Assembly: GCA_947179485.1 (NCBI GenBank)
Contig: OX359250.1
Location: 33,572,783 to 33,636,782, forward strand
Length of the DNA stretch: 64,000 nucleotides
Direction: 5' to 3'
DNA from: Allacma fusca
Taxonomy: Eukaryota > Arthropoda > Collembola > Symphypleona > Sminthuridae
In this document: positions 1,325 to 6,059 of the stretch, one piece after another
Layout of the letters: every line of letters starts with the position of its first letter
Numbering within the stretch: the stretch's first letter is position 1
Made by a program: the position numbers and the translations under genes
The notes under the pieces: model-generated
What the model was told of the DNA's origin: nothing
Seen by the model: the letters and a program-made list of their open reading frames with translations, nothing else
Databases searched by the model: none

Positions 1325-1332
1325 TAATGAAC
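1325..1332. repeat. 8-bp target-site duplication, left copy (TAATGAAC)
   Basis: TAATGAAC directly precedes the P-type element and is repeated exactly at 2662-2669 directly after it. Eight base pairs is the duplication length made by P and hAT transposases. Confidence 0.9.
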
Positions 1333-1364
1333 CAAGGCTATAGATAGTAACAGGTTCGGCCAAA
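1333..1364 (+). repeat. P-type element left terminal inverted repeat
   Basis: Thirty-two bases identical to the reverse complement of 2630-2661. Identity stops at position 1365. It is preceded by the 8-bp duplication. Confidence 0.93.
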
Positions 1365-1411
1365 TCGCACGTAAGAATGAATAGGGCGGAGAGGTGGACA
1401 AATTTAGGGGG

Positions 1412-1422
1412 CTGTGACGTCA
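1412..1422 (+). repeat. P-type subterminal inverted repeat, left copy
   Basis: CTGTGACGTCA is the exact inverse of 2595-2605. The similarity continues inwards: about 21 of 25 bases match when the flanks are included. In the Drosophila P element an 11-bp internal inverted repeat acts as a transpositional enhancer; the same role here is inference. Confidence 0.75.
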
Positions 1423-1476
1423 GTAAAAGTGATCTCAGCGCGCGCTCTACTTGTCTTCAAATGACAATCTTTATAG

Positions 1477-1737
1477 AAGCAAATAAAATTATTTAATGTG
1501 AACTTTATTTGTGCAATAGCGGAATGTAAAAACACTAAAAATATTAAACAGAGTAGACTATCAGATTTAATATTTTACAAGTTCCCTAAAAATTCTCAAA
1601 CGGCTAAGATTTGGGTTGTTAATTGTAAGAGGAAAGAAAATGTAAATGGTGTAACTGCTAGGATTTGTTTACATCATTTCAGTGAAAGTGATTATGTCTG
1701 CGATTTCAAAAATGAACTTTTGGACTTGACACGTTGA
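1477..1737 (+). pseudogene. THAP zinc-finger domain of a P-type transposase (N-terminal remnant)
   Basis: The frame is open from the stop at 1474-1476 to a stop at 1735-1737. The codon where a THAP protein would normally start is GTG (1498-1500), not ATG, and there is no in-frame ATG before the domain, so the start appears lost or lies in another exon. Counting from that codon, the C2CH signature is complete: C5 and C10 (C-x4-C), then 46 residues to C57 and H60 (C-x2-H). The conserved P30, W39 and F61 are also in place. THAP domains bind DNA; in P transposase this domain contacts sites inside the element ends. After the stop, a reading frame shifted by one base would continue with the basic LK-rich linker typical of THAP proteins, so a single-base change seems to have broken it. 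A protein from this piece alone would be DNA-binding only. Confidence 0.8.
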
Positions 1738-2026
1738 CACCTAAAAAATATTAAAAAGTGCGACCGTTTCCAATGTGTTTCCATTCAGAAAGCCAGTTTC
1801 CTTTCAATTAATTCGAAGTAACTGTCTACACTAAAACAGAATTTACAGATAAAATTAACAACTTATTGGAAAGCATAACAAATTTAAGGTGATCATAATT
1901 AGCTTATGAAGAAACTTTTATCAATTATTTCAAAACAGAGAAGTGAAATCGTGAAGATTATTTGTGTGATTCCAAAGTTCTAAGTCTAAAAGCTGCATTA
2001 AGTAAACACAAACCACTTAAATATCT

Positions 2027-2170
2027 CTTTCCCCCGACCAAGCAAAATTAATTAGTGGCCACTAAAGTGTCAACTGGAGCATAGGGGATATTTCAAAGGC
2101 ATTGACAATCAAGTACCTAAGTACTAAAACCTATCATATGACCAAGGAATATTTGCAAATTCCACTGCAA
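2027..2170 (+). pseudogene. Central P-type transposase remnant
   Basis: In a frame different from the THAP piece, these bases read LSPDQAKLI, a stop, then NWSIGDISKAL followed by TIKYLSTKTYH and a final IPLQ before a stop. P and THAP9 transposases have in this place an LSxxQ motif, then W-S-x-x-D-I-x-x-A, then S-x-x-x-Y and a Leu-Pro-rich segment, just ahead of the RNase H-like catalytic domain. The order and spacing fit. No catalytic core follows in the remaining 490 bp, which points to an internal deletion. The identification is from family knowledge; no alignment was run. Confidence 0.6.
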
Positions 2171-2594
2171 TAACAGAACTTTATGAAGACGAACGAGCAA
2201 GTTGACTTTTGACGAAGACATTTTTACCAAACTTCCCGTTTTTAATTTGATTCAAAAAATAATAATTAGTCGGGATTTGGTGTTCACATCGAGTTTCACA
2301 CGGTGTCGTTATTCAATTTAAAGGCATTGATGGAATAAGCAAGATACAAATTTACAGAAACAGCAAGAAACGCAAGTGTCAGCTGGGATTTTTAATCTTA
2401 ACTAATTCCCTGCTAAAAAGCAGAAGACGGGTTAATTTTGTGAACAGGAAACAATTTGTTAATAGCTCTGTTGTTGTCGTGGGTTAATTTTAAATTTAAT
2501 TGTAATACTTGAAAAGAATTAAAAATCTTATTCAAACTATTTTGCGAATTGTTTACATACTTGTGTAGTATGTGTAGTAAGAAATGACTTTTGA

Positions 2595-2605
2595 TGACGT
2601 CACAG
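2595..2605 (-). repeat. P-type subterminal inverted repeat, right copy
   Basis: TGACGTCACAG, the exact inverse of 1412-1422. It lies 56 bp from the right end, against 79 bp on the left. P elements show a similar slight asymmetry. Confidence 0.75.
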
Positions 2606-2629
2606 CGAGGGGGTTATTTCAGCATACGC

Positions 2630-2661
2630 TTTGGCCGAACCTGTTACTATCTATAGCCTTG
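2630..2661 (-). repeat. P-type element right terminal inverted repeat
   Basis: Exact inverse of 1333-1364, ending in TATAGCCTTG and followed at once by the right target duplication. Confidence 0.93.
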
Positions 2662-2669
2662 TAATGAAC
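2662..2669. repeat. 8-bp target-site duplication, right copy (TAATGAAC)
   Basis: Identical to 1325-1332. Confidence 0.9.
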
Positions 2670-3005
2670 ATGAATATTAGATTTTTTTAATACAAAAACT
2701 TCATAAAAGACCATTTGTTTAGAGGCGGAGGGCCAAGTCTCCGATGATTGTTTCTTGGCAAGAACAATTTATTGTTGAACTATGTCATACTATTGTCAAT
2801 TCTAGTAGAAAGCCTTGCTCAGCAGGGATTATAACTGATAGGTTTGGGATACTCTTACATAGACGCTAGAATATGCATGAGTGTAATGAGAGTTAAAACT
2901 TGAAATATTAGAATTTCAAACAAAACATCCTGGTTGAGCGCCCTTGGGAACTTCCTACCAAGGTAATGCGCATGCCCCATGTTTGACCCGTAGACATACA
3001 TGGGC
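2670..3005. other. AT-rich spacer
   Basis: Unique-looking AT-rich DNA. I see no gene or clear repeat in it. Confidence 0.45.
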
Positions 3006-3176
3006 ACCCTCACGAGGGAATGAGGGATGCCTCGCCCTCTCCCTCGTCCTCACAAATTGTGAGGGAGATGGTGAGTACACGTTGTTTTTTGGAGCCCTCA
3101 CAAATATGAGGGAGATGACCTAAGGAGAGGGTGTGAACGAAAAAGAGGGAGGCAGTGGACACATATAAGCCCTCAT
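3006..3176. repeat. GAGGG/CCCTC palindrome cluster, MITE-like
   Basis: A GC-richer island in AT-rich DNA. It holds about a dozen CCCTC or GAGGG words in both orientations. At 3048-3064 CCTCACAA and TTGTGAGG form an almost perfect hairpin with one central base. A second, imperfect one (CCCTCA...TGAGGG) lies at about 3095-3112. The word CCTCACAA is also the end sequence of the element at 1-919. The cluster may be a small foldback or MITE relative, but I could not fix its ends or a target duplication. Confidence 0.4.
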
Positions 3177-3870
3177 GACCTAATCTTACCGGAAACTTTA
3201 TGCGAGAATCTTTCAGACATTGTTATGTAGCAAACCCAACTTGATAACGCCAATTTCACACAGTAATCTTACAATTAACCGTCTCCCCATTCTCCACGGG
3301 ATGGGATGACATTATATGTGAGCTTAGGTACTGGGTCATGCCAGGCGCAAAAATCCAAAGTTTTAATTTCAAAAAGGTTGAAGGTCCTCTCGTTTACCTT
3401 TAAATTGATCATGTTGAACTCCAGAATAAATTTTCAAAAGATGTCGGTGAGGCTTGGTAATTTATAAAGCAGGACTCTACCTGAGCTTTATATTTGACGA
3501 ATGCTGCTTGCTTGGCCTATTAAATATTACTGGTGTAAAGTTAAGGAACTATCAATAATGATTTGATCAATAATAGTAATTTTCTGAGCCATTGCACAGA
3601 TTATAATTTATTAAGAAATGTTGTCGACAATAAAACTGACAGAATTGTTTTTATCACAAAATAATATATTGTATGTAGTCCGACTACTGAAATTTTGCCA
3701 TTTCGCCAAAAATCAAAATATAAGGAAGACACACTTTTTACCAATGAATTTGAATTTAACATTTTTTGTAGGAAAAACCAGCCCTAAATCGAAAAAAGAT
3801 ACGGAAACCAAATTTTTTGGAACGAATAAATGCATAGCTATATGTTTCATAACTATAGATACTCTATGCT
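3177..3870. other. AT-rich spacer
   Basis: No recognisable gene. The 88-codon open frame at 3618-3884 has no familiar motif and ordinary AT-rich composition. Confidence 0.4.
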
Positions 3871-4062
3871 CAGTTACAGGTTAATACCCTGTGTGTACCC
3901 ATACATGAAGGGTTATAACCAAAATATGTTTTTGCAACAGTACCCATACCTGAACCAACATGTTCAGTTATCTATTTGAACCTGTACCCAACCCGAATGG
4001 ATGCAAAAAATGCGTAGCTAATACGCACCTGTACCTGTACCCAAATACCCAGGTAATCACTG
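3871..4062. mobile_element. Possible small hAT-like MITE with GTACCC/GGGTAC repeats
   Basis: This stretch is dense in the words GTACCC, ACCTGTAC and CCTG. It begins CAGTTACAGG and ends with the complement of CAGTGATTACC; both start CAGT, as hAT ends often do. The word content resembles the better supported hAT-type element at 4516-5357. The two ends match poorly and no 8-bp duplication is visible, so the limits are tentative. Confidence 0.25.
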
Positions 4063-4507
4063 TGCTAATGAGGGCATTATTTTGAATACAGTATTTCAAA
4101 ATCAAATTTTTCCTAAAATATTTTTGAACGCTAGTTGCACGAAATTTTATAAACTTTCTAAGCGATCCGAAAGGTCCTTACGTTTAGAATTGGGAGTATG
4201 TACTGTAAGAACGAAGAGCAAGGTTAAGAAATCATTGCTTCAGGGGAAAAAGGCAATTGAGAAAAATATTCTGATCTTGCCATTTTTCATGGGGAGGGCT
4301 GAAGGTTACCTTATATACAAATGACCGCTATTTATCCTCCCGTTACAGCGAGATTAGCATGTCACATCTGCCTAGTATAGTCTCATCGACGTTAAAATTT
4401 TTAATTGTTTTTCGTCGAAGTGCAAAAATCACATCTCCTAAACAACACTAAATGAGCACATCTACACATATACGGGAAACCACAGACTATAAATAAACGT
4501 ACGTTCA
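4063..4507. other. AT-rich spacer
   Basis: An 80-codon open frame at 4082-4324 has no recognised motif. Nothing else is identified. Confidence 0.4.
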
Positions 4508-5365
4508 CTCTCGACCAGTGCCTGTCATGGGAACGGGTCACACCCGGGTGTTTGGGTGCAGGAACGGGAACGGGTATCATATGGGTGCAAAATGTTTTCA
4601 CCCAAAAGTGTGGGTACAGGTTTGGGAACCAACCTTTCCAATTATAGTATGTGGGAACAGGAACCCATATGGGAACGGGTGCAATACAGGCTGAATGGGA
4701 TCTGTACCCAACAGGATCGGGAACGATATGCTGAAAAACCCGTTTCTGTTCATGCGTACCCGTGTACAGAGGAATCTTGCGAGCATAACGATAATTACAT
4801 GATTGATTTGTTTTGGCGTGGTGTGACCGACTATTTTTGTGTCGCTGTTGTAGTTTAGAGGCAAACGTTCTTTGTTTGAACAGATCATCCCACGTCGAAT
4901 GATGAAATGTGACAATAAAAATTAATTGTATGCGTATGTTGTGCTTAGCCGTTGTAAGGTGACTTAAAAATTACAAAATTAATTACTTAAGTAGAATGAA
5001 ATATAACAAATAGAATGAGTGAAATTGTGTGTAGCCATTGTTAGCAAAAATTGAAACAATAAGTATATATAACGTATAACTTTTATCCTTGAATATATGA
5101 ACTTCCGTTTCGGGTACGGGAGCTGGTTCCAGGGTTTTGGGTACGGGTTTGGGTGCACCCAAAATTAATTTTTGGGAACAGGAACGGGAACGGGTTTGGG
5201 CGCTATAATTTTAAAGTTTTCGAGTCTGGGTGCGGCACTTTTGTTCACAAGATTTCGGGTGCAATTTGGGAATTGGGTTCTGCCTTGTACCCAAACCCGA
5301 ACTGTGGGAACGGGAATGGGAACGGGGACAACTTTTCTGTTCCCATGACAGGCATTGCACTCCAC
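4508..5365. mobile_element. hAT-type non-autonomous element with GGGAAC/GGGTAC subterminal repeats
   Basis: The element proper is 4516-5357 (842 bp). Its ends, CAGTGCCTGTCATGGGAAC at 4516-4534 and the inverse at 5339-5357, match over 19 bases with one difference. The CA(G/A)TG start is typical of hAT elements. The flanking octamers CTCTCGAC (4508-4515) and CACTCCAC (5358-5365) agree at 6 of 8 positions, as expected of an old 8-bp duplication. Both flanks carry many same-direction copies of GGGAACGGG and GGGTACGGG; the central part (about 4700-5090) is AT-rich. Open frames on both strands here only reflect these repeats. No transposase is present. Confidence 0.65.
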
Positions 5366-6059
5366 CAGAAGTATTCTATACAATGTTAGTTCAATCGTTA
5401 CGGAATGTAAACGTTCAAAATATTACATTTGACTTGTAAGGCAACAATTGGTTTCATATTCTTACCATCAATCAGCATTAAGGGGCAAAATGGTTTATAT
5501 GTAATGGCAATGTTTGAGCTTGTGTTGCCCCAATTAGCAGTAAAAAGTGATATTTTTGCCCGTTTTTATGAAATGACAACTAAATTCATACTCATAAAGT
5601 CATCAGGTGACCCAATCTCAAATCAGGACTTCTGGGCACCCGATCAATGATCTAAACCTCATCTAACCAAAAATAGGGAAAATTCGAGGTGAATGAATCA
5701 GTGAAAAGGGCAGTAACAGGTAAATGTTGTTGAACAGGTGTACGTGCCTCCTCAGAACTGAAGTTCGCAGTGATATGCTCAAATAGTGGTAGTGACATTT
5801 GACCTCTTATATCTCGGGAAATAGAAGTTGGCTGACAACAATTCTTTCAAATTCTTAATACTCGCCAAATACACAGTGCCTCTGTACGAATTTTTATCAG
5901 AATCTTTGTGGGGCTAAAAAAAGTAAACTTAAGCCTTCCGTGACTGCAGTTCAGTTATATTTTAGCTCTGATAATGGGGCAGAGCGTCAGTGTTTAAAAG
6001 TATGGCAAATGGCAACACTAGTGATTTGAAGGACTAACCACGAAGCACTTTATTATTAC
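5366..6059. other. AT-rich spacer
   Basis: No supported gene. The 73-codon frame at 5429-5650 is not recognised. Confidence 0.4.

Follow-up and report, generated by a model that had tools for sequence, protein, structure and literature searches.

A non-autonomous P element family in the springtail Allacma fusca, with signs of recent movement and excision scars suggesting an 18-19-nt staggered cut

Our study reports on a family of short P-type transposons in the genome of the springtail Allacma fusca, starting from a single copy in a stretch of 64,000 nucleotides (the window; C9:33572783-33636782, C9 being X2) and extending to the whole assembly (392,743,791 bases in 91 contigs). The 1,329-bp element in the window (positions 1333-2661) is very probably a non-autonomous P-superfamily transposon with internal deletions, derived from a longer THAP/RNase H element and spread by cut-and-paste in trans by a P-type transposase. 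Within this one assembly the family appears to have both inserted and excised in recent times, with clean scars marking the sites it left, and the most distinctive point about it is the length of the stagger that these scars suggest. P elements are the textbook example of a genome invader of recent date; most of the mobile ones that have been studied well come from flies, mosquitoes and zebrafish. Here one springtail genome shows insertion, excision and apparent interrupted gap repair, so that cut position and repair can be deduced without experiment.

The features of the element are collected in Table 1. The outermost 32 bp at its two ends are perfect reverse complements, with the first mismatch at position 33; the preliminary description had reported perfect 32-bp ends and an 8-bp duplication, and recomputation finds both exact. 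The subterminal inverted repeat, given there as 11 bp, is likewise exact but is 12 bp long, its two copies starting at position 79 counted from the left end and at position 56 counted from the right. In the interior a single stretch is open and matches the THAP model of Pfam (PF05485, 47.5 bits against a cut-off of 23.9); everywhere else all six frames carry stops. Scans of the window with Rfam, at the gathering threshold, and for tRNAs returned no matches. Elsewhere in the window (4400-5400), overlapping open stretches have repetitive translations (such as VPVPIPVP and GNRNGNG), perhaps reflecting a tandem repeat.

Table 1. Features of the P-type element and its flanks, in window positions.
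Feature	Positions	Strand	Remarks
Target-site duplication, left copy, TAATGAAC	1325..1332	.	exact match to right copy
Left 32-bp terminal inverted repeat	1333..1364	+	exact; 29-bp form occurs 82 + 82 times in genome
Left end region	1333..1449	+	divergence 0.039 vs 0.087 in interior, 17 representatives
Homologous to L079:1879-2431	1333..1881	+	left end and THAP exon, 81%
12-bp subterminal inverted repeat GCTGTGACGTCA, left copy	1411..1422	+	palindromic core TGACGTCA at element position 83
THAP domain coding remnant	1510..1734	+	open stretch 1477-1734; start codon of L079 lost here
Homologous to L079:2740-3060	1901..2227	+	covers P-type HTH match, 78%
Homologous to L079:4430-4629	2230..2419	+	end of GTP-binding insertion match and stretch before RNase H C-terminal match, 82.5%
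Homologous to L079:5453-5698	2414..2661	+	end of last open stretch and right end, 88%; 6-bp junction overlap with 2230..2419
Right end region	2587..2661	-	divergence 0.022, below interior
12-bp subterminal inverted repeat, right copy	2595..2606	-	core TGACGTCA at position 60 from right end
Right 32-bp terminal inverted repeat	2630..2661	-	exact
Target-site duplication, right copy, TAATGAAC	2662..2669	.	exact

A longer element with the same two ends, L079, lies on chromosome 1 (C1) and was located through a DNA search with part of a further relative, L061 (40 of 75 candidates scored). It is 3,820 bp long (1879-5698 of its locus), its duplication agrees at 7 of 8 positions, and its coding pieces comprise a THAP stretch, a P-type HTH match, a GTP-binding/RNase H C-terminal stretch and a C-terminal stretch. 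The Pfam models PF05485 (56.4 bits), PF12017 and PF21789 (29.4 bits each) score above their cut-offs and PF21788 (23.3 bits) slightly under its cut-off of 24.8, while a PF21787 match is absent from L079, whose N-terminal RNase H part is interrupted. A stretch of 672 bp between CAGTGCTCTCA inverted repeats interrupts the element, and around it the reading frame is discontinuous. Of the longer THAP plus RNase H copy that the preliminary description had proposed to look for, only this interrupted form was found. L061, on X2, also retains RNase H coding DNA (PF21787, 40 bits, with one stop) and is missing both ends. The window element aligns to L079 in four collinear pieces at 78-88% identity, the alignment giving no counterpart for L079:3061-4429, and is therefore a deletion derivative of an L079-type element; because the divergence is large, L079 is a relative and not the direct parent. 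We propose that a longer THAP/RNase H element with these ends would have lost its catalytic core to yield the window type. The interior, previously described as decayed and shortened, is indeed broken and shortened, but it is common to the family and was therefore inherited broken; decay private to the window copy is ruled out on the same ground.

The P-type assignment made earlier holds on the evidence of the THAP remnant and of this same-ended relative with its P-type pieces. The terminal repeats, exact over 32 bp, are close to the roughly 31 bp of the superfamily, and its 8-bp duplication, subterminal inverted repeat and N-terminal THAP domain are all present; the RNase H-like core with its GTP-binding insertion is found in pieces, in L079 and in the end-less L061, and the long staggered cut inside the terminal repeat is suggested by eight scars and two one-sided products (see below). 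An 8-bp duplication is also found in hAT elements and a THAP domain in Kolobok, so that each of these shares one feature with the springtail family, but we consider an origin in either extremely improbable and reject it: the pieces of L079 are P-type and not those of a hAT transposase, the related families C and D match the Drosophila P transposase 6p5a (E 1.7e-63 and 6.6e-69), the listed duplications differ from the TTAA of Kolobok, and the scars can retain as much as 19 nt of an end.

The family is numerous. Its 29-bp end occurs 164 times in the genome at up to 3 mismatches (82 per strand), whereas the reversed control gives 0 + 0, and this difference excludes a chance origin of the ends; the preliminary description, which had made its reading depend on further copies with these ends, is upheld in this respect. 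A DNA search returned 121 candidates, and 28 of the 40 matches scored are near full element length at 90-100% identity. From the material behind the 164 ends, 67 loci and 10 scars were read. The first round covered 53 loci, 42 of them two-ended, of which 35 have an exact 8-bp duplication; the 11 without a second end, and likewise 5 of the 14 later loci, were excluded from the duplication counts. Over all 51 two-ended elements the duplication, which had been singled out for checking, is exact over 8 bp in 41, exact over 9 bp in 4 and neither in 6, four of which agree at 7 of 8 positions; with eight footprints added, the totals for 8 bp and 9 bp become 46 and 7 of 59. The core TGACGTCA is exact at both ends in 37/42 two-ended elements of the first round and, when 1 mismatch per end is allowed, occupies positions 83/60 in 38/42.

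Some copies are young. The window copy and L002, which lies on another chromosome (C12), are separated by 3 substitutions over 1,329 bp (indels left uncounted), and L081-L086 lie 1-4 substitutions from their listed nearest neighbours while carrying six different duplications. Other tight groups are L009/L012/L013/L014 (1-5 substitutions), L011/L015/L018 (5-8), L008/L017 (6) and L028/L030 (7). A tree of 36 rows, which omits L026, L037, L077, L089, L090 and L091 and includes L079 in shortened form only, recovers the same tight groups as the distance table; the underlying alignment omits L026, L077 and L089. Older copies are present too, with nearest neighbours 2-27% away. Duplicates in the assembly are ruled out as the source of near-identical copies by the differing target duplications. 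Judged by these distances, several subfamilies are of similar young age, and the recent movement claimed earlier is borne out. Movement in trans, also claimed earlier for what was taken to be a non-autonomous element, is well supported. As to distribution, chromosome 2 (C8) holds 39 of the first 100 perfect ends listed, a list that stops within C12, against 16 on the longer chromosome 1 and 7 on X1. On C10, a match at 51375298 and an end at 51379005 may belong to another copy with an insert.

The ends of the family have been kept and the protein has not, as the pattern of divergence indicates. Among 17 representatives, hand-picked out of 39 aligned rows, the left 117 bp diverge by 0.039 and the right 75 bp by 0.022, while the interior reaches 0.087 and the THAP remnant 0.108; even the least divergent interior windows of matching size (0.052 and 0.044) lie above the two end regions. 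The target is weakly palindromic, about ATTCA-N8-TGAAT, around 35 exact duplications, with a palindrome score of 0.292, a value reached by 0/5,000 shuffles, against a shuffle mean of 0.264. Palindromic targets reaching past the duplication have been described for P and other transposons (PMC3276498, PMC4168063).

The position of the cut can be approached through excision products. P transposase is reported to cut 17 bp inside the ends (PMC7776569; PMC8951532). One derivative, L037, retains 18-19 nt of one end, the 19th base being common to the other side of the junction, and looked like the product of interrupted gap repair. Its one-sided end predicted the existence of scars built from two short end remnants, which were then found. 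A search of the genome for two exact 16-base tips with 0-30 bases between them, a pattern to which scars keeping fewer than 16 nt of an end are invisible, yielded 8 sites, five of 33 bp and one each of 37, 40 and 45 bp, and none with the reversed control; the 33-bp form at up to 3 mismatches recovered the same five and two more (1 and 2 mismatches), again with a control of 0. Exact direct repeats flank 10/10 scars, 8 bp long in six and 9 bp in four. Where eight scar sites were compared, similarity spans the scar and a few further bases, the longest match being 69 bp at 80%. A second derivative, L103 (276 bp, with an exact duplication), keeps 19 nt only of one end and is likely another one-sided product of gap repair. 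The length of end kept by the eight scars found by pattern, by L037 and by L103 does not exceed 19 nt, though the pattern permitted more. The 33-bp scar by itself is compatible with a stagger of 17, 18 or 19 nt; at 19 nt, the tails overlap via GTAAC/GTTAC with one central mismatch, and both resolutions of it are seen among the scars. We favour a stagger of 18-19 nt, because each of the three longer scars retains 19 nt on one side and 17-18 on the opposite side, and L103 likewise retains 19. Duplications of 9 bp are commoner at scars (4/10; L106-L115) than at elements with an exact duplication (4/45; Fisher p = 0.029).

The preliminary description had also made its reading depend on a P-type transposase in the genome and had placed an active one elsewhere in it. 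The first of these holds, while the second is only half established. P-type transposase genes are present: PF21787 has 36 matches in the genome (47/47 candidates scored). The four copies of family A (L051, L052, L053, L057) are 99.2-99.97% alike, with open frames of 575, 442 and 442 aa in three and stops in the fourth; more than one P family may have been active recently. Family B (L045) is among the other families with long open frames. The right ends of A (L053) and B (L045) were not found in the stretches examined. Family C (L048) is 3,188 bp long and family D (L049; C1:52416185-52419988) 3,804 bp, each with an exact duplication, and D has a 566-aa open RNase H stretch. The FDEM, C/S-DL and late D..E.FF stretches of C and D, which we take to carry the catalytic acids, align with 6p5a; a structure prediction for the L049 transposase (mean pLDDT 49.6) was left out of our conclusions. 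D shares with the short elements the first 12 bp of the end (CAAGGCTATAGA) and C the first 8 bp, and in D TGACGTCA stands at 81/59, against 83/60 in window-type elements. The end of D, at up to 3 mismatches, occurs in 15 places, among which the C1 copy is the sole inward-facing pair. In all five P families examined (L049, L048, L053, L045 and the short elements), the TGACGTCA palindrome (at most 1 mismatch) lies 73-85 bp from the left end; its distance from the right end, available for three of them, is 59-62 bp, and the two sides are thus asymmetric by 22-23 bp.

The enzyme proper to the family is a different matter from these relatives: an intact cognate transposase with these ends was not found among 40 of 75 DNA candidates or 119/119 six-frame candidates, the latter with exons read apart, and the chromosome 1 copy, L079, is interrupted. 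The search with stretch 4116-5018 of L079 gave 101 matches among the 119 scored candidates; the sole full-length match of high identity was L079 itself, L061 reached 81% over 57 residues, and D, C and A reached 54%, 53% and 47%, while the short elements match only a fragment near residues 104-174 of the query. Because the six-frame search reads exons apart and some stretches as N, the absence of an intact enzyme is unproven.

Three sources of the activity have to be weighed. An intact cognate transposase may persist in the species, on the other haplotype, in other individuals or in unassembled DNA, with the assembly merely lacking a copy; we regard this as a serious though tentative possibility. 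The similar youth of several subfamilies suggests a recent common helper, and the deposited assembly represents one haplotype, the contigs of the second being deposited apart (PMC10427803); the C-terminal search, on the other side, covered every candidate in the assembly and found whole-length high identity in the broken copy alone. Other resident P families with long open frames might instead act in trans, and cross-mobilisation by one of them, for example the D element on C1, would draw on its shared 12-bp tip, its nearly equal TGACGTCA spacing, its exact duplication and its long open RNase H stretch. We judge this rather unlikely, since the ends of D and of the window type diverge past the first 12 bp and the C-terminal part of D is just 54% identical to that of the broken cognate. 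It is a little less likely still that the cognate enzyme has recently become extinct, leaving an immobile family whose young copies record a last burst. All cognate copies found are broken, as such a loss would predict, but the youngest copies are about 0.1-0.3% apart and five of the seven 33-bp scars are letter-perfect, although a very recent loss would be compatible with this. A composite scheme, in which the enzyme would cut 19 nt in, the 19-nt tails would anneal via the near-palindrome GTAAC to give the stereotyped 33-bp scar, and a heterologous P transposase reading the CAAGGCTATAGA tip and TGACGTCA spacing would now mobilise a family whose own enzyme is gone, strikes us as improbable to a similar degree.

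Whatever its source, the observed anatomy, copy families, duplications, target palindrome, scars and conserved ends suggest a model for the action of the enzyme, the order of its steps, the stagger and the route of repair. We propose that the transposase recognises end regions of about 117 bp on the left and 75 bp on the right, and would cut one strand at the very tip of the element and the other about 18-19 nt further in. The excised element would insert into a weakly palindromic target, of which 8, sometimes 9 bp are duplicated. The donor gap would be end-joined, giving scars of 33-45 bp, or alternatively filled from another copy, interrupted filling producing deletion derivatives such as L037 and L103.

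Comparison with known systems shows both the typical and the particular in this family. The P element of D. melanogaster has similar 31-bp ends, 11-bp subterminal repeats and an 8-bp duplication, and resembles the springtail family in its THAP and RNase H/GTP-binding transposase, internally deleted copies, unequal end spacing and long staggered cut; the springtail subterminal repeat differs in having the TGACGTCA core at 83/60, its scars keep up to 19 nt where the Drosophila stagger is 17, and a minority of its duplications are 9 bp (PMC7776569). Short derivatives beside full P elements are already known from Anopheles (PMC1562414) and zebrafish (PMC10983969). Anopheles gambiae is likewise an arthropod whose genome combines several P families with short derivatives flanked by 8-bp duplications, but six of the MITE consensuses described have a centre unrelated to P, whereas the springtail interior aligns almost entirely to L079, and 7/9 of its P subfamilies have full-length copies, unlike the springtail family (PMC1562414). 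Zebrafish Pdre2 is similar in its THAP9-type transposase, 12-bp subterminal repeats, 8-bp duplication and internally deleted copies, and differs in its 13-bp ends and in distant subterminal repeats of other sequence (PMC10983969). Galileo of Drosophila willistoni, also of the P superfamily, has a palindromic target past the duplication and reportedly no functional copy, but its duplications are mostly 7 bp (PMC4168063).

In the open-licence literature on springtails, Collembola and Allacma, none of the matches listed describes a springtail P element; a repeat table for Orchesella dallaii has a lumped line, 'Other (Mirage, P-element, Transib)' (PMC12693562). Allacma fusca probably reproduces with elimination of the father's genome (PMC10427803), and such paternal genome elimination is an unusual setting for a selfish element. 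Apart from the P family, four nuclear places in the assembly (on C12, C5 and C8) match COX1 over almost the whole model, with TGA as the sole stop, and the one that was translated is open under the invertebrate mitochondrial code.
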